This document shows, piece after piece, positions 360 to 14,149 of a stretch of DNA of 14,431 bases. The notes beneath the pieces are model-generated. The model searched no databases, was not told where the DNA came from, and saw nothing but the letters and a program-made list of their open reading frames with translations. How positions within the stretch are numbered: position 1 is the stretch's first letter; each line of letters starts with the position of its first letter. Location of the stretch: contig JALLPB010000588.1 in NCBI GenBank assembly GCA_036939975.1, forward strand, positions 1 to 14,431, in the 5' to 3' direction. Position numbers and translations under genes: made by a program. This DNA comes from Cyclostephanos tholiformis (taxonomy: Eukaryota > Bacillariophyta > Thalassiosirophyceae > Thalassiosirales > Thalassiosiraceae).

Positions 360-742
360 TATCTTGTCAATTTACTGGGAGTGTTTGGACCTGCCCTCTA
401 CACAGATGATATGTGGGAATTGTATCGATTTGTCCTTTATGTGTATATGCGAATGGCGTTGTTCTTTGTTGTTCGAGTGCACGATACAACGTCATGTGCT
501 CTTTAGGTGAAAAAAAGCAGATGTAATGTGCCAACTTTTTTCCTTTTTCCAGGTGCTTTTTACTGCATGCAGGATAAACGAAAAGGATGCTCAACGAAAA
601 TTCCCATATCTTCAACACGCCCTGTGTTATTTTCTCATCACAAAAAATCTCTTAGACAAACAAGTCGATCATAAAAAAAAATAGAGACCACAGTTGATCT
701 CAAACGAGCAGATATCACACCTCAACAACCTATCGAACCACC
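360..742 (+). promoter_or_regulatory. Upstream region of the HSF gene
   Basis: No convincing gene is seen here or in 1-160. The ATG of the HSF gene lies at 743 in a favourable context (CGAACCACC before the ATG). A two-unit heat shock element, GAA-AA-TTC, lies at 596-603, about 140 bp upstream of the ATG; a third unit in correct spacing is missing. This could allow autoregulation by the HSF, but a six-base match of this type has an appreciable chance of arising randomly in a region this size. Confidence 0.3.
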
Positions 743-2011
743 ATGTGCGTCACCAGTACAGCCCGTAGGCGAAGCCTTACTATGCTCGTGCTTCCAAACA
801 ATCTGTTGCAGCCGTCCTCGGGGGCGGCACCGTTCAAGTTTAAGACGACCGCGGTGCCGATGAAGACGCCTTCAGCGGAGATTGCCATGACGTCGACATT
901 CATGCCGGAGTTTCAACCAAGTTCATCTTTCTTTGATGACGTCAAGACACACTACAGGAACTCCAGCGCATCCAACCAACTCTCCTATCAAGGTAGCTCG
1001 ATGACGGAACGTCATTACTCTGATCACGCCGCCGACCAGACCCTCGATCCCAACATGATCAAGTATAAGGCCAAGGGCGGTGTCATCTTCCCGTTCCCTG
1101 TCAAGTTACACGAGATGCTAGAACAGATCGAATCTGATGGTCTAGCCGATGTCGTGTCATGGGCGAGTCATGGTCGATGTTTTTGTGTACACAAACCCAA
1201 GGAGTTTGTGCATCACGTCATGCCACAGTACTTCAAGCAGACGAAGATGGCCAGCTTTCAAAGGCAATTGAACCTATACGGATTCAGCCGGCTAACGGCA
1301 GGGCCGGACAAGGGTGGTTACTATCACGAGTTGTTTCTTCGGGGCAAAGTCAGCTTGGCGTACAAACTCCATCGAATAAGGGTCAAGGGTACAGGGGTAC
1401 GTTTGCCTACCAATCCTGACAACGAGCCAAACTTCTATGCATTGCCTCCCTTAACCAAGGATGCACTTCCCGCAATTACAAGCATGGACGTGACGTCGAG
1501 TGCCTTGGCACCGGTACCCGTACTTTCCAAGCGAACGATTCTCGATGCTTGTGCCGCGCCCTCGTTTGAATCTCATGACTATTCGAAAAAGGTTGCACAG
1601 ACCCAGAAACAGGAACAAAAACAGCAAGCCTTGATTGACGATGTCCTCTTTTTTGAAGGCAATCCATTCCACTACATCGATTCTAGTGACTTTGTAAACC
1701 TCAACACCAAGGAGTCTCAACAAGCACTTTCAATTAAGGAGCCCCCCCTGGCTGTGCCACCAAACTTGGTACATTCCTATTCCAACATTGTTTCCGAATC
1801 CGACTCGGATTGTGACGATACTATCATATCCAGTTTCTTACAGACCGCGGACGAGGTCACAAATTCGGATCCTTCTCCACTTGAGGAAGACATTGACTTC
1901 TTTTTCCAGTCTATTGACATGCCAACGGACATGTATCACGAACAGATTGAACTCATGCGCGACGACGACGACGACGCGTTTGGTGATTTGCTCGAGAGAG
2001 CCATTATTTAG
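743..2011 (+). CDS. Heat shock factor (HSF)-type transcription factor
   Basis: A 422-residue protein from a single exon. Residues about 112-215 form an HSF DNA-binding domain: FPVKLHEMLEQ, then the W140 region (VSWASHGRCFCVHKPKEF), then the recognition-helix signature SFQRQLNLYGF at 171-181, then GGYYHELFLRG and a basic end KLHRIRV. HSFs bind nGAAn arrays in the nucleus and activate stress or other genes; the family is greatly expanded in diatoms. The first 105 residues are Ser/Thr-rich. After the domain there is a short Gln/Lys-rich stretch (281-297) but no long, clear HR-A/B coiled coil. The C-terminus is acidic with bulky hydrophobics (EEDIDFFFQSID at 381-392; DDAFGDLLERA near the end) and looks like an activation domain. 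Five GAC repeats at 1961-1975 encode part of its Asp run. Start chosen as the first ATG in a good context; a downstream Met remains possible. Convergent with the Duc1-like gene. Confidence 0.93.
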   Translation: MCVTSTARRRSLTMLVLPNNLLQPSSGAAPFKFKTTAVPMKTPSAEIAMTSTFMPEFQPSSSFFDDVKTHYRNSSASNQLSYQGSSMTERHYSDHAADQTLDPNMIKYKAKGGVIFPFPVKLHEMLEQIESDGLADVVSWASHGRCFCVHKPKEFVHHVMPQYFKQTKMASFQRQLNLYGFSRLTAGPDKGGYYHELFLRGKVSLAYKLHRIRVKGTGVRLPTNPDNEPNFYALPPLTKDALPAITSMDVTSSALAPVPVLSKRTILDACAAPSFESHDYSKKVAQTQKQEQKQQALIDDVLFFEGNPFHYIDSSDFVNLNTKESQQALSIKEPPLAVPPNLVHSYSNIVSESDSDCDDTIISSFLQTADEVTNSDPSPLEEDIDFFFQSIDMPTDMYHEQIELMRDDDDDAFGDLLERAII

Positions 2012-2237: not shown

Positions 2238-3314
2238 TCAGGCTTTTTCCATGAAGAGTCTTGCTAGAGGCCCTGGTTTCTCGTCAGAGTTGAGTAATCG
2301 CCGGTGCCACATCTCCGTCGCCCAAAAGTACTCTGCGGTATCTTTCTCTTTAGCCATTGCCATGAAAAGTGGATAACCATTGAATAAGGGTATTACATCG
2401 ATCGAAAAGAACGTCGTAAGCTCCATTCGATAGCGTGCAGGCGAGAAGAAGTTGACATAGGTGTCGAAAGTGTAAACAAAATCAGGCTCAAAGTAGAATT
2501 GTTCCAGATTGCAATTCTTTGAAAAGTATTTGCGTCGAGCGATTCCATCTTGGGGGACGGAATCGTCTCTCAACAGATGTGTATCTTCGATGACATTGCC
2601 GTCCTCTCCGATACCATGCAAATCATCATCGAGGAGACCTTCCAGGTCCTCTGGCTTATCGATACGAAAGTGTTGACAACCCGACAACAGTGGATGCTCA
2701 ATCCTTGGCTCATCAGACAACAAATCACATTGATATGCCTCCGGAAGTTTACTTTTCAACAATTCAAGACCTTTCTTTACCACCAATGACGATGGTCTAT
2801 TCCGAAAGGGCCTGCCAAAGTCTTGACCAGTTACAACCTTATCAAATCGTACTCTTTTCTTGAATCGACCTTGGATGCACCATTGGTATTGGCGAGATCT
2901 GTTGTGAAAGTATTCATGGTTGGGAAGTAAATTGCCTTCGAAAGTTGAAGTCGAATCAACGTCTCTTATGCGAGAAACGAGCTTGCCTTCAAAATTTGGC
3001 CCGTTAAATGCTATGGGACATCCATTCACTGGTATCACCTTAAGCCTCGATTCTCCATCGCCGGAATTTCTACTAGAGAGTTGGAATTCAATATCTCTTG
3101 CTCTCTGGGATGGAAGAACGAGTAACATAGAGTTGCTTGCCCACTCAGCCAAAGATGCCGTCAGGCCTGACCGCTCAGCGTAGGCCGAGAAGGCCGTCTT
3201 GTCTTTGTCTCCAATCGCTTCGGGGACGTCTGTCATGGGTCGTGGACTTGTCGTCATCGACGTGCGGAAGACTGATGACCTGATGACCGCTTTTTTTTGT
3301 GAATAGTTTTTCAT
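2238..3314 (-). CDS. Duc1/DUF1769-family protein
   Basis: A 358-residue intronless protein. I recognise the layout of the DUF1769 (Duc1, 'domain of unknown function at the cortex') family: FEGKLVSRIRDVD at 108-120, YFHNRSRQYQWCIQGRFKKR at 135-154, FEPDFVYTFDTYVNFFSP at 275-292 followed by YRMEL, and a closing block YFWATEMWHRRL at 329-340. In fission yeast the family member sits at the cell cortex and is linked to phosphoinositide binding; no enzymatic activity is known to me. Residues 1-60 are polar and probably disordered. An acidic loop (223-252) interrupts the domain. There is no signal peptide or membrane segment. The start at 3314 is the first ATG; Met20 is an alternative. The assignment is from recalled motifs, so the family name is likely but not certain, and the role in this organism is unknown. 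Confidence 0.8.
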   Translation of the reverse strand: MKNYSQKKAVIRSSVFRTSMTTSPRPMTDVPEAIGDKDKTAFSAYAERSGLTASLAEWASNSMLLVLPSQRARDIEFQLSSRNSGDGESRLKVIPVNGCPIAFNGPNFEGKLVSRIRDVDSTSTFEGNLLPNHEYFHNRSRQYQWCIQGRFKKRVRFDKVVTGQDFGRPFRNRPSSLVVKKGLELLKSKLPEAYQCDLLSDEPRIEHPLLSGCQHFRIDKPEDLEGLLDDDLHGIGEDGNVIEDTHLLRDDSVPQDGIARRKYFSKNCNLEQFYFEPDFVYTFDTYVNFFSPARYRMELTTFFSIDVIPLFNGYPLFMAMAKEKDTAEYFWATEMWHRRLLNSDEKPGPLARLFMEKA

Positions 3315-3716
3315 GTTTTATTTTTCTTCTCCAAAGTACGGAGGATGAAACTCCCAAGTGGGGGCCATTGTCTTATCCACACTTCCTTCAATTGATAACA
3401 CTCGGATAATTGGTACTGCACCCTCGTGGTGATTAATTCCAGATCGTGCATGGGACGTGTTCAGCTTCCATCAAAATCCATCGGGCTGATGATGAACCGG
3501 GCGATCGACGATACATATTTTTACATTTTCTTGGAGATTACAGGAAGCGAATTGCTGTGATCGATCGGCAATATTGTATTTTGCCGAAAAAAAATATATA
3601 TATAATGAAAGTAGGATGAAAGTTTATCTGACACGAGGGGGAGCTGCTACGATCTCATCTCTGTGTGTTGAGTGGGTGGAGGTGCAGTCCATGAAGACCG
3701 GTTTTTCCGATGATGC
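3315..3716. other. Intergenic region upstream of the Duc1-like gene
   Basis: No coding region can be supported on either strand. It contains a small perfect inverted repeat, TCGGCAA (3565-3571) and TTGCCGA (3581-3587) around a 9-nt spacer, followed directly by an A8 run and a TATATATATA stretch. It presumably holds the promoter of the minus-strand gene starting at 3314 and the downstream flank of the LHC-like remnant. Confidence 0.4.
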
Positions 3717-7098: not shown

Positions 7099-10000
7099 AT
7101 GAGTCGAATGAGGAAAATGAAAGTAAAAGCCTCGCCGCCTGCCGATGCAGTCAGTGACGACGTAACAGTGCAAGAAAGTGTTCACGAGAATGACGGCGAC
7201 ATGCAGATGAATTCCGCAGATGACGACATTCCGGAAATCCTTGACAAAGATACTGACGCCAATCACAATGATGACGGGGATGCAACTGCAGTGGTCGACA
7301 AACAGGTCAAAAAGAATGGCGAGAAAACTATCCATGCGAAGAAGCAGCAGCAAACAACTTCGACTACAACAAAAAAACAGGCTCCGATTCCATTCATGGA
7401 TACCTTTTTTCAACTATCCTCGGAGGAATCTCTGAACGATCGTTCGGTCGCCGCGCGCGATTTGATTCATCATTGCCTCCTAGATGAATGCGGCGTCAAT
7501 CATAAGGACGCTGCTTATGCGCTAACCCGCCTGATGAATGGACTGTGCACTGGTCGCGCTGCGAGTCGACAGGGATTCGCATCGTGCCTCTCTTCATTCC
7601 TTCGTGTGGTGTATTCTCCCTCGTTGAATAGTGATGATTGTAGTAGCAGCGCTTCTCTCGAAAGAATTTTGAAGGAGGATGCATATTCCAAACAGTTCGT
7701 GGAAGATTCAACGAAAGAAGATGCTTCTTGCAATGCCGCCGTGATTGTTCGTCACAAACTACTGTCAACCACTGCAGTTGAACCAACCAACAACAGTAAT
7801 GAAAAAGGTCAAAGGAAGAATCATTATGGTGGAAAGATGAAGGAAACTGAAAAACGAGATCATTCGTTTGGTAGATTGTTTGGTATCTTGGCCGTCGTTC
7901 GAAGTGGGATACTTGGGTTGAATGATTTTCCTTCAGAGGTGAGTACCGCAAACCCCTGCCTTTCATACTTGCACCATTCAAATGTTGAGAAATGCATATG
8001 CAATGATTGATGAACTACCCATAAACGTTTGCAGTAAAAGCTGATTGAGCTGAGTCTCATGGAGCGTATATAACTTCCTTGGATGTCTGAGCGTATTGCA
8101 ATCTCTATCCCAATACATGTCTTACAAGTGTTGCCAATGGTACTCATTTTAACAACTCATTTCACTTTTTTTCTCATTCCGACCGCTGAAATACCCAGGC
8201 TGTTAAAGGATATGCTAAAGACCTGATTGATCTATATAATTATAAGACTTGGATGAGAGAACCGGCTGCTCATGCTCTAATTGAACTCTTGTCATCGCTC
8301 GATACCGAGTCCAATCAAAATCTTATTGAACAAGTTGTAAACGATATCATCATTCCCACATTTCTACTCTCAAGAGCGAATATCGATGTGTCGAATGAAT
8401 CTCGAGCTCAATGGTTGCAGGAAATAACCCCGGAACAAGTTGCTGTCGTTTTGCACCTGCAAACCCCTCGAAAGTGTGCCATCAAATATAACCACCCACT
8501 TGATACTACTTTTGTTTCGCCTGAATCAATCCCAGCTCTCTCCGTGGCGTTTGCCTCGACCTCATGTGCCGTCTACCCTAGATGTCATATCGTCTGGAAC
8601 ACTCTATGGACGTATCTAACGGAGGAAACGAAGATTAAAGGTCACCGACAGCTACGAATGAATGAAGAGTTCCCATCGATCGTCAAAAAGATTGTTCAAC
8701 ATGTAGTCGTTGATGTTCTTCTGGGTAATGGGGAAGAGTGTACCACGTCAACTCATGAACGCCGCTCTCTGGCTCTTCAAATCGTCTGCGCTCTCAGTGG
8801 ATCATCTGATCGTAGAATTTCCCTGCCGCCAAGTCTCATCGGAAGTGTCCTCCGTCCGGATGTAATTACGGGTGTGTTCCTGAATGTTCTTTGTGCCAGT
8901 GGAGGAATCGGACAGAAAAGCTCCAAAATGGGTTGTGGTGTGGAACATTATCTTAAACCATTGACCTCTCAGGCGCTCGCTGACTTGACAGATCACTGCT
9001 GTGAAGAAGATGACATTGATCGCCGATTAGCTTTAGCCAAAGCATTTTTAGGTGCAGATCATCGGTTTGACACTAGGACCAAAACAAAAACAGTAAGCAA
9101 TCTATTGATGCTTGAGAGTAGTGTCTCCAAAATGACCGACGAGTCCAAGAGTAAACGACAAGTTATATGGCAGAAATATCTTTCTTTTTTGGAAGATGAG
9201 ATTGTTTCGGCGACAAGTTTGCACAATGCAACCGTCCGTATCGAACTTATGTATAGGGTGGCAAAGCTTGACCTCACCAAAGCTCCTGCCGATGCAGCCC
9301 GCAGAATACTTAGATTTTTTATGTCTGGCGCCTTCTTTGACTGCTCAAGTATGGACTCATTATATAGCACAAAGAAAGCTTTGTCAAAGAAAAAGAGGAA
9401 AGACAAGTCGAATCAAACATTGACAACTCCTCCTACCGAACTTTTATCGGGACTTCGCATAAAAGAAATCTTACATGCGAATGGAATGAAATCCATATCT
9501 CACCCCATCCGATCTATCATGTCTGCGAGGTTTTACTCCTTGGTAGCAGACTTAACTTCTTCTATCTATTCAAATAATCATGGAAGTAGACAGGGTAGTA
9601 GGCCTGAATCGATCTATCGAGCATTGTCTGAGATTTGCGACATTTCATCTCTCCTTGAGGCAAGTGGAGCCAAGAAGTTTCCATCTCAATATGCTAATTT
9701 AGACTCCGATGATACCTCAGACGTCGAGGACTCCATGGAAACTTCAAAGAAATGCATGCTTCAAGTCCAGGCAATCGCTAACGGGGCCTTAGTCGAGGAA
9801 TGTAATGACTCTGGCAATAAAGACATTTTACGTGCAAAAGCAGTATTTGCCACTGGATGCGCCGCACTCATGATGTCTCTTTATCTTCAACTGAATAACT
9901 GCGGTGCGCCAGACATAAATGGCGACGAGCAGGAAGAAGAAGAGGACGAAGACATAGTTGAATGTCTCCATGAATACATATCAGATTTAGCCGACTGTGT

Positions 10001-11769
10001 TGATGGATTCAACAAAATATTTGGGGGCGACTTCAGTTCCAAGAAGGATGAGAGCAAAGTAAATCCCTTAGCAAATATGGCTGGATTGCTAGTGAACATT
10101 CTATCTTCGCCAGTAGGAGGGGAAGACTCGAGGAAAACAGGGGCGTCAAAACTAACCAGGGAGACTGTAAAGGTGGCATGGTCTGGAATGCTATCAGCTG
10201 TCACTGGTTTGTGTGCAAACAACAAATCATTAAATAGCTTAGTCGATGAGGATGTCATGGTTATTTTAATTCAATCTATCTGTGGAGAGAAAGCAATGGG
10301 GGATGACGACAAGGATGTTGACAATGAATCTATTGCAGAAAGTAGCTCCTCTGAAGATGATTTGGGCGAGAGTGCTATTTTTGTCGATGCAGCAGTGGTC
10401 GGAGTGAATCTGGATGAAGTGAAAGATGATGATTCTGACGTTTCCAAGAGGAGCAACGAGATTAGTGAGAACAGCACTGATGTAGGTGGAGATGATGACG
10501 ACGACATCGAGCTTGATCCTGCGAAACTTGAAAACCTTCTGCTAGAGGATAGTGATGCCGAAATGAGTAGCAATGGGGTCAGCGGGATACTGGAACATCA
10601 TGCAGGAGCCGACAAGGCGCTTGGACAGCTCATCAAGTTGAAGCAAGAAGCTCGCAAAGCAGCTCAGATGGAGCGTGATCGCATTGATCTTTGCAATAGA
10701 TTGAGATGCGCTACCTTACTTGACTTGCTGTTTACACCATCGGTATTCAAGAGTGGCTGGCTGCCTGTTGAGGCGGTGCTAGGATCGATTGTTCCTATAC
10801 TGCGTTCTTACAAGGCCATCGCCAAGAGTATTCAAGTATCATCATCTGCAAATGCAAAGAAGTCTCTTGGTGAGAAGAATGCACTCCTCGACCGTCTGTC
10901 TGAATTGTTGAAGAATAAAATCTCCAAATTCCGTCAGATTGACGGATCAGGCGCAGGTGAGGTAGCACTCAAGGCATCATCTGATATAGTACAAGAAATG
11001 AATCGAAGCTTGAATGCATCACATTGTTCATGTTGTAGTGTGGCTTTAACCACAGCTCTAAGATGTATCCCTAATGCCCATGAAAGTGTAGCGGTCAAGG
11101 ATATATACAGCAAGGCAATCCATGACTGGAGCTCACGAAAGGCGACAAAGATACATTCTTGCGTATTTGATGATTTAATCAACCGAATGCCAAGGTATGT
11201 CATACTTCTATTGCTTTTGAATTGGCCTGTGTTTACACCTTTTAACCTTTAATATATATTTTTTCTATAGTCTGGCATCAGAAGTTCTGATTGAGCCCCT
11301 CATGGGTGCAGCAAGGGATGCTCATTCTCCCTTTTTGAAATGTGAATCAATCAAGCTTTTGTCCGCCATATACAAGCAGTCAAACAACGAAGAAAGCATG
11401 ACCGAGGAATCAAGAAGAAAGATGAAGAAAAAATGCAGTAAAGTCGCGGAAACATTGAAGAGTGCCTTGGGAGACTTGAACCTCCAGAGGTCCAAGCACA
11501 GAGATGAGGTACTTATCGCCACAAAATGCTTCGTTAACTTTCTGAAGGCTCAAGATGAAGGAATCTTAACTGAATTAGAACTCGTTTCATTGCAAGAAAC
11601 CCTGACAAAGGTTGCAGGAACCTGTAAGAGCGGAGGAATGAAGCAGCTGTGCGGACAAGTGTCACAGACGATAGCAAATGTAGCCTGGCGAGCTGACGAT
11701 GTAGAGCAGAAACCTAAACGCTCCAAAGAACCAAGGAGTAACAAGAAGCAAAAGAAGTCTAAAAAGTAG
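7099..11769 (+). CDS. POL5: DNA polymerase phi / MYBBP1A-POL5 homologue (three exons)
   Basis: Exons 7099-7938, 8199-11194 and 11271-11769 join to 4335 nt, 1444 residues. The junctions are GAG/GTGAGT...CCCAG/GCT (phase 0) and CAAG/GTATGT...CTATAG/T (phase 2), and both restore the frame. Residues 1-92 are acidic and polar. From about 93 comes the family N-terminal block: FMDTFFQLSSEESLNDRSVA, then YALTRLMNGLCTGRAASRQG (about 138-157) and a leucine-rich alpha-helical repeat body. Acidic tracts lie at about 853-865 (EQEEEEDED) and 987-1066 (SSSSEDD, DDDDDIELDPAKLENLLLED). The C-terminus is a basic nuclear/nucleolar tail (KPKRSKEPRSNKKQKKSKK). Despite the polymerase name, family members act as HEAT-like nucleolar proteins in rDNA transcription and ribosome biogenesis. 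At 1444 residues it is somewhat longer than the yeast and human proteins. The start is the first ATG; the in-frame GTG at 7087 is rejected. Intron 1 contains the U14 snoRNA. Confidence 0.92.
7999..8100 (+). ncRNA. SNORD14: Intronic box C/D snoRNA U14 (SNORD14 / snR128 homologue)
   Basis: It lies within the 260-nt first intron of POL5, on the same strand. Elements in order: terminal stem TGCAAT (7999-8004); box C UUGAUGA (8007-8013, one base off the RUGAUGA consensus); domain A CGTTTGCAGT (8026-8035), complementary with one G-U pair to 18S ACTGCGAACG near the rRNA 5' end; a possible box D' CTGA (8041-8044); domain B CTTCCTTGGATGT (8074-8086), a 13-nt perfect complement to the universal 18S stretch ACATCCAAGGAAG; box D CTGA (8087-8090); and closing stem ATTGCA (8095-8100). 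The fifth base upstream of box D pairs with the C of ACATC, the site U14 is known to methylate (C414 in yeast, C462 in human). Box C to box D is 84 nt. U14 is also needed for 18S processing through domain A. It presumably matures from the spliced intron. The rRNA sequences are recalled, not searched. Confidence 0.9.
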
Positions 11770-11979: not shown

Positions 11980-14149
11980 TCATGACAATTCTGACATCAA
12001 TTCACACAGCGCACTACCTTTGTCCTCACTTAATTCATCATATGTCCCTTCCTCCACAACTTTACCATCCTTCAAAACTATAATCAAGTCTGCAATCTGC
12101 AATGTAGATGCACGATGCGTAATAAGCAACAACCCCATAGACTTGCAATTATCGCCATTGCGGCAAGCATGCACTGCATCAGTGACAGCACTCTCCCCTT
12201 CAGCGTCTAATGCACTACTCGGTTCATCCAAAATGAGGACACAGGGTTTAGATACCAATGCACGCGCAAGAGCAAGGCGTTGGCGTTGACCCCCAGAGAG
12301 CCGCATGCCATTTCTCCCAACACGGAAGTTCAAGCCATCATCCAACTTGTCAATGAAATCATTGCAATTTGCGATTGTGAGTGCCTTCTTGATTTCTTCG
12401 TCAGAAGCATTTAGATTCGAGTACGAAACATTGCTCTTGATTGTAGCGTCAAAGAAGGCAGGATGCTGAGGCACGACTTGGATCAAAGATGTTTGAGACT
12501 CCCTGACTAATTCATTGAAATCTACTCCGCTTGGTTGAAGTGTGATTTTTCCATCTTGCGGAGTATATAAGCCGGCAATGACTGATGCTAATGACGTTTT
12601 GCCAGACCCATTCTTTCCCACAAGTGCAATAACTTTGCCTCGTTCAAGCCTGAGCGATACACTATCGAGAACAGTTGTTTTGGAGGAGCTCTTGTATGAG
12701 AACGAGACATTTTGAAGAATTATTGACTCCACTGATTCTGTATCAATAGGCTGTTTTTTGCCTTCGCTGCTTGATTTTGCATCAAGCGAGCCATCCATTA
12801 AACTGTAAACCCTATCTGCACTGACAAGACCCTGAGTCAGCTCTCCAAGCGCTTTGAAAACGCCTGAGGTGCCCAAGCCTAGCAAAAAGGAATATGTAGC
12901 AAAGGAAGTAAGTTCACCACTTGTCATGCGTCCAGTTGCCACGGCTGCCCCTCCCGCGTTGAACACCGTGTATAAAGCACCTCCAGTAGCTGCAAAGGTG
13001 AAGCCCATGAAAACGCCTTTGGCAGAATTGACTTTCCTGCCCAAACGGACGCATTCTTCCTGTAGCTGAACATATTTCTCCACCTCTTCCTCTTCTCTGT
13101 TGGCAAGCTTGACCGTCATAATATGGGTAATCCTCTCCTCCGCGAATGATGCAGCCTGCTCCGCACATTCTCTCTGTTTCGCTGTTGCCTTTTTGACAAA
13201 CTTATTCAATACTACCGCTGCCGCTCCTACCACTGGAACGATGCTGACCGAAATCCCAAAGAGTGATGGATTAAGTGAAATCATGTGATACGTGGCAAAC
13301 GCACAAGAGCTACAACTTCGCAAAATGTTGGCAAATACAGTTGTGACTGACTCCGATGCTTTGTTGCAATCTTCAGCGAGGATGGATCCAATAGCTCCAG
13401 GAGATGATGCCGATGTTTGATATGTAGGAACGGTCGCTGCATCTGATTGGTTATTACCATCCTTCGAGTTCTCACCCTCAGACTTGGCACCACCCCCAGC
13501 AACGAACCATTCCATATCACGATTTGTAAGCACAGCGCTAAATAGCTTGGTACGCAGTCGCTGTGCTATGTTGTCTTGTGCTCGATTAAGCATGGTCGTT
13601 CGTAAGAAAGACGCGAACCCCCCACCAATCACCACAATTGCAAGTGCCTTGGACGCGCTGCCTGAGTTGCCACTGTGTGAGCATATCTCATCTACGCCAC
13701 ACGACATATTTTTTAGTGAAGTACTTTTCTCATCCAGAAGCCTGCCAAGAAGCTTGGGGAGTGCTGATAGCACGCGTTGACAGTGAAAAATAAATATGAA
13801 ACGAGTTAGAAATGAACCATCGTCGGGGAGTGCAGCAAGTCACACGTCATCTACCTTGATTTGACAGCGCCGATGCCATCATAGCCAGTGTTCCCACCGC
13901 CAGGGATCGAATATCCGTGCTTGCCTCATCATTCAGACGAGCTTTCACATACTTCTTGCGCGACGCCTCCAGCGACTTGGCTTTCTTGGCAGAAGGCGCA
14001 TCTCCTTTGGTGGACATGTTTCTATCAAAGCCAGCTTCCTCCCGCGCAGTCCTCGAGCGTTTGTGCTTTGGTCTGAAAAGGCGGTCTACGATAGACCCGT
14101 TCTTTCTCCTGGTGATCTTTGCTTGGCTCGGTTGGATGTGCTCTGACAT
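11980..14149 (-). CDS. ABCB/TAP-like half ABC transporter (two exons)
   Basis: Exons 13855-14149 and 11980-13763, with a 91-nt GT-AG intron between them, join in phase to 2079 nt, 692 residues. Splicing creates the first membrane helix: LAVGTLAMMASALSNQ joined to ALPKLLGRLLDE, exactly the TM1 pattern of the family. Residues about 1-84 are a basic cytosolic extension. The membrane domain spans about 85-420, including FLRTTMLNRAQDNIAQRLRT after TM2. The ATPase domain has Walker A GKNGSGKT (481-488), Q-loop Q531, signature LSGGQ (587-591), Walker B VLILDE (607-612), D-loop SALD and switch His648, all intact, so it should hydrolyse ATP. With one membrane and one ATPase domain it must pair to work. 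A Gly/Ser/Asn-rich insert (about 186-225) lengthens the first intracellular loop. Substrate and membrane (ER, vacuole, mitochondrion) cannot be told; no clear mitochondrial presequence is seen. Confidence 0.92.

Follow-up and report, generated by a model that had tools for sequence, protein, structure and literature searches.

A stretch resembling the U14 (SNORD14) box C/D snoRNA lies within intron 1 of a POL5/MYBBP1A-type gene in the diatom Cyclostephanos tholiformis, which raises the question of whether a working guide RNA is made from it. U14 is described as an RNA that both guides one methylation and acts in pre-18S processing (PMC6315972). The best explanation of the observations below is that a working U14 is produced from this intron, a reading to which we give a probability of about 0.93. 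The window, i.e., the whole stretch of 14,431 nucleotides that was analyzed, contains the following features:

7099-11769, plus strand: host gene of the POL5/MYBBP1A (DNA polymerase phi) type, 1444 amino acids (open frame, PF04931, homologues)
7099-7938, 8199-11194 and 11271-11769, plus strand: host exons (joined, they give one uninterrupted frame of 1444 codons)
7939-8198, plus strand: host intron 1, 260 nt, GT-AG (frame-keeping splice pair)
7999-8100, plus strand: putative U14 (SNORD14) snoRNA including the terminal stem (Rfam RF00016 at 7998-8094)
7999-8004, plus strand: 5' strand of the terminal stem, UGCAAU (sequence and predicted fold)
8007-8013, plus strand: box C, UUGAUGA (sequence; region seen in the translated intron tails of relatives)
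8026-8035, plus strand: domain A, CGUUUGCAGU (pair count, duplex energies, five relatives)
8041-8044, plus strand: possible box D', CUGA (sequence only)
8050-8053, plus strand: second CUGA near the possible box D' (sequence only)
8074-8086, plus strand: domain B guide, CUUCCUUGGAUGU (pairing; together with box D unique in 25 Mb)
8087-8090, plus strand: box D, CUGA (sequence)
8095-8100, plus strand: 3' strand of the terminal stem, AUUGCA (sequence and predicted fold)
11195-11270, plus strand: host intron 2, 76 nt (frame-keeping join of the exons)

The host gene and its predicted intronic RNA

A POL5-type host had been proposed in the preliminary description of the locus, and this was borne out: the DNA_pol_phi domain (PF04931) matches host residues 140-686 over profile positions 1-441 of 765, with an E-value of 1.4e-34 and 119.9 bits, well above the cut-off of 27.6. 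A protein search with the host (7992 candidates scored) returned 71 homologues, among them proteins that carry the source name DNA polymerase phi, and the two species-named ones are both from diatoms, namely Thalassiosira profunda (55% identity) and Nitzschia inconspicua (31%). A nucleolar, rDNA-linked function of the host is putative, being assigned by homology only. Elsewhere in the window, open frames encode a protein with a heat-shock-factor-type DNA-binding domain (698-2011, plus strand; PF00447), a Duc1 domain protein (2238-3317, minus strand; PF08588) and an ABC transporter (11980-13839, minus strand; PF00664 and PF00005).

For intron 1, splicing at 7943/8208 would preserve the frame as well; this alternative pair is disfavoured by homologues that read FPSE-[AV]VEGY over the junction, as the chosen pair does; homologue P0008 has FPSEAVEGYTKD at this point versus FPSEAVKGYAKD in the host protein. 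The length of 260 nt given earlier for intron 1 holds, whereas the statement that it is two to three times longer than the other introns is loose, as the single other intron of this gene has 76 nt, a ratio of 3.4. The RNA starts 60 nt past the donor and ends 98 nt before the acceptor of intron 1. No guest RNA was found by Rfam on the own strand of intron 2, where the sole match is antisense and under the cut-off (E 5.8).

The segment 7999-8100 is, judged from its sequence, a box C/D snoRNA of the U14 family. In agreement with the preliminary description, the 84-nt span from box C to box D is closed by a terminal stem of six Watson-Crick pairs, which the predicted fold extends by G8005-U8094, and the first nucleotide of box C deviates from RUGAUGA. 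Boxes C and D are joined by this stem, a feature of the U14 family. The global fold is unremarkable (z +0.36; 124 of 200 shuffled sequences have an equally good fold), which is normal for C/D RNAs. The comparison with the Rfam U14 model suggested at the outset gave a divided result, as RF00016 aligns end to end, over 7998-8094, at an E-value of 8.8e-5, while its 37.6 bits lie under the gathering score of 64. SNORD14 is the top Rfam match within the window, though under the gathering score, and the seven further matches (E 1.6 to 7.9, all under the cut-off) were taken as chance. A diatom U14 gene is thereby gained that the Rfam cut-off would miss.

Intron 1 in related diatoms

Conservation was read at the amino-acid level, from protein predictions on unspliced, metagenomic contigs. 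The open reading frames (ORFs) of relatives continue past the donor site of exon 1 and terminate at a stop codon within intron 1, so that their C-termini are translated intron DNA. Exon 1 protein searches gave 91 proteins and the best 120 of 132, which combine to 122 distinct exon-1 ORFs among the matches listed, including the window's own (P0072). A donor was placed by script in 119 of these 122 listed ORFs and not in the remaining 3, and tails of at least 20 residues are present in 32 of the 119 (31 without the window's own). The scripted donor lies too far upstream in P0151, P0154 and P0163, whose tails measure 15, 15 and 20 residues by eye. Whole-tail ungapped scoring gave nothing for P0118, P0143 and P0144, and local element scores were used instead.

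Both box C and domain A are present in 5 of the 31 long tails among the matches listed, and one more, P0140, has a clear box C (CAMIDEL) and stops before domain A. The tail end of P0093, AMIDELPINVCSKS, is identical to the window RNA in that frame and carries domain A without a residue change, while the tail of P0090 differs by one residue from the translation of the window RNA. P0118 and P0144 end in HKRLQ and P0143 in HKLLQ; when back-translated, these ends match the domain A region apart from a slight shift in spacing. Among 3000 shuffles per tail, either element was reached by none for P0090, P0093 and P0118, by one for P0144 and by three for P0143, the domain A score of which (4.5) is slightly over that of the best uninvolved rows (4.0). 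In the look at other diatom POL5 introns that the preliminary description proposed, the intron 1 tails of five listed relatives thus show both elements. Domain B was seen in none of the relatives' tails.

Weaker evidence comes from P0079, which ends in CND* at box C like the window's own ORF, and from P0139, which ends in the same way with a tail of only 15 residues. P0083 and P0132 (ending in MQ*), P0080 (CICDD*) and P0141 fit box C weakly and were left out of the count, as were P0075 and P0086 (ND*, score 4.0), because the same score is reached by P0172, which falls outside the clade, and by P0159 within coding sequence. Within the clade, neither element was found in the tails of P0105 (42 residues) and P0084 (29), and P0108 (28) has VCSK only, with no box C; the RNA of these three may be located further into the intron, or be absent. 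Most of the 119 listed tails are too short to be informative.

A quick tree of 136 exon-1 regions places the five two-element sequences and P0140 in a 64-row group (support 90) that also contains the window's gene and T. profunda. A 49-row subgroup of it (support 89) still includes these six sequences, with the five occupying two separate branches. (The tree label "box C only" on P0140, P0079, P0139, P0080, P0075, P0086, P0083 and P0132 is looser than the final count.) Outside the 64-row group no long tail has both elements, including those of P0190 (55 residues), P0172 (49), P0152 (41), P0156 and P0193 (37 each), and the best single element scores there are 4.0, which is chance level. As the signature tails all belong to one POL5 clade, the location of U14 would have been kept across it, and U14 seems to have stayed in the same POL5 intron in several related diatoms. 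In P0039, P0059, P0064 and P0068, which belong to the set with N. inconspicua, the protein is continuous over the intron 1 site, and their origin from metagenome contigs of 10 to 26 kb suggests that intron 1 is absent; some other continuous POL5 rows could represent spliced models or transcripts. The diatom POL5 set that includes Nitzschia thus seems to lack intron 1, and U14, if it exists there, must lie elsewhere in those species. On the simplest account, the ancestor of at least the 49-row subgroup already carried U14 in intron 1 of POL5, and the RNA is elsewhere or deeper in other diatoms. More generally, translated intron tails in protein databases can reveal where a snoRNA is located.

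Pairing with 18S rRNA and copy number

The domain B guide directly abuts box D and forms 13 of 13 Watson-Crick pairs with canonical 18S ACAUCCAAGGAAG (-22.3 kcal/mol; the 18S was typed and is not this organism's), which agrees with the perfect complementarity claimed before. The target C is faced by G8082, the fifth nucleotide before box D (N+5). In yeast, the domain B target is C414, a position also named in the preliminary description. A table row in the literature assigns SSU C462 to SNORD14A/B and C416 to U14a-d (PMC6461891). Guide and box D together (17 nt, at most 3 mismatches) have a single match in the window, which is exact, and any match at all occurs in 12 of 200 shuffles. As a side observation, the printed consensus of the Rfam eukaryotic SSU model RF01960 reads CAcuuCuAAGGaag at positions about 411-425, where CACAUCCAAGGAAG is the usual reading.

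Domain A forms nine Watson-Crick pairs and one G-U pair with 18S ACUGCGAACG, and eight and two, respectively, with 18S ACUGCGAAUG (both typed, not the organism's own). For the second element claimed at this place, the site in the 5' half gives 10 consecutive pairs with typed 18S GAAACUGCGAAUG, one or two of them G-U depending on the 18S variant. On its own, domain A is within chance expectation (2 window matches at up to 1 mismatch, 1.60 expected). The duplex is more stable with GAACG (-16.0 kcal/mol) than with GAAUG 18S (-14.2 kcal/mol), whereas the longer domain A of the Rfam consensus prefers GAAUG (-21.7 versus -17.3 kcal/mol with GAACG). Diatom 18S presumably has GAACG at this site, the reading that the preliminary description also gives; if so, the preference of domain A would be co-variation.

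The short domain A gives rise to a rival reading, in which the RNA is a methylation guide only, with a working domain B, a vestigial domain A, and pre-18S processing left to other RNAs. The weaker duplex over 10 positions with one or two G-U pairs, compared to the longer pairing of the consensus, speaks for it, as does the separability of the two domains, a fly U14 without domain B having been reported (PMC6315972). The element is, however, legible in the same intron of five relatives, unchanged in P0093 although weaker in P0143, and we regard this guide-only reading as rather improbable.

The organism's own assembly (24,953,341 bases in 1566 contigs) was searched for further copies. The SNORD14 covariance search of this assembly found no second U14 (450 candidates, 99 scored), and guide plus box D, with at most one mismatch, occurs once in the 25-Mb genome, at the window locus. 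Relaxing the search to a pattern of box C plus domain A gave the window locus and one other, on contig C175. The latter was rejected as a second U14, since Rfam has nothing there at E ≤1 and guide plus box D is missing at up to 3 mismatches. A better U14 elsewhere, which the preliminary description had named as a possible objection, was thus not found in the 25-Mb assembly. A U3 covariance search of the same genome was uninformative, as the controls were also without a match.

A pattern search of the 25-Mb assembly for the organism's 18S gene (domain B target and flank, 1 mismatch) found none. A match to the 18S domain A site with one mismatch, on contig C626, looks like chance, since it has no Rfam match at the gathering score and no domain B target. 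As the pattern searches found no 18S gene, rDNA is probably missing from the assembly, which is incomplete given its fragmentation and the missing 18S gene. Viral contigs gave no match in scans for the U14 pattern or for the 18S site. In a metagenome-assembled genome (MAG) labelled Clostridium, positions 1649-6060 of contig JALFQD010000114.1 are eukaryotic rDNA (18S, 5.8S and part of 28S), and the contig is therefore foreign to that MAG; its 18S was rejected as a stand-in for diatom 18S, as it has GAACG at the domain A site but not the domain B target.

The incompleteness of the assembly leaves room for a locus that is a relic or transposed copy no longer made, with the working U14 encoded in the missing parts. 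Against this stand the perfect guide, boxes and stem, and the conservation in relatives with 48-53% identity in POL5 exon 1, which make such a relic very unlikely. That the intron contains a chance look-alike, as the sub-threshold Rfam score and the chance-level domain A might suggest, is hardly credible in view of the E-value of the covariance match, the uniqueness of guide plus box D in 25 Mb and, strongly, the intron tails of the relatives. The U14 identity put forward initially is thus supported by the end-to-end covariance match, both guides in U14 order, the lack of a better locus in the genome searched, and the relatives' introns.

Proposed function and known U14 systems

Once spliced out, an intron that carries a single C/D snoRNA is debranched and then trimmed back to the core bound by proteins. 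The diatom U14 would accordingly be released by splicing and debranching, followed by exonuclease trimming to the C/D core protected by snoRNP proteins. Domain B would direct fibrillarin-mediated 2'-O-methylation of the 18S cytidine in ACAUC, and domain A would pair near the 5' end of 18S and aid folding and cleavage of pre-18S. The nested position would already have existed in the ancestor of the diatom clade that includes T. profunda, so that each host transcript could yield one ribosome-biogenesis mRNA and one U14. A coupling of host and U14 expression is plausible, yet the two need not be made in a fixed ratio even from one transcript, since the high level of one intronic snoRNA in Ostreococcus tauri is described as uncorrelated with host expression, for which the authors point to stability (PMC7671301). 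More tentatively, POL5 intron 1 could be the sole U14 source of one diatom clade, under one promoter and one splicing event, with a domain A that co-varied with a lineage-specific 18S change; we consider this full version doubtful. If true, an rDNA-linked protein would depend on the same promoter and splicing event as a key pre-18S RNA.

Expressed vertebrate snoRNA hosts are reported to be enriched in ribosome biogenesis and translation (PMC10234308), and a POL5 host therefore fits a known pattern. Among the matches listed, open-access titles and abstract starts contain no snoRNA in a POL5/MYBBP1A gene and no diatom U14, which does not prove absence from print; the main text of a diatom small-RNA paper does not mention U14 (PMC4247016).

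Like vertebrate intronic U14, the diatom RNA is a single C/D RNA in an intron of a gene for protein synthesis or folding, and has the same two 18S elements, of which domain A is putative. The vertebrate hosts are introns of HSC70-family and ribosomal protein genes, whereas the diatom host is of the POL5/MYBBP1A type; the diatom box C moreover begins with U, and its domain A differs from that of the Rfam consensus, CAUUCGCAGU. The yeast U14 (snR128) gene is not intronic. Its RNA belongs to the same family and is described with an extra Y domain (PMC6315972). Ot-CDsno13 of O. tauri is likewise the U14 of a unicellular alga, but is reported in a cluster of four C/D snoRNAs, while the diatom U14 is alone in its intron (PMC7671301). 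In land plants, U14 is described as conserved nearly everywhere, and snoRNAs as mostly polycistronic, unlike the single intronic RNA of the diatom (PMC5122169). Tetrahymena TtnuCD25 and TtnuCD32 and the fly U14 are U14 relatives with altered elements, reportedly without a canonical domain B, whereas the diatom RNA keeps domain B whole and differs in domain A (PMC6315972). The RNA family and the intronic mode are ordinary; what is new is the POL5 host, together with its conservation across a clade.
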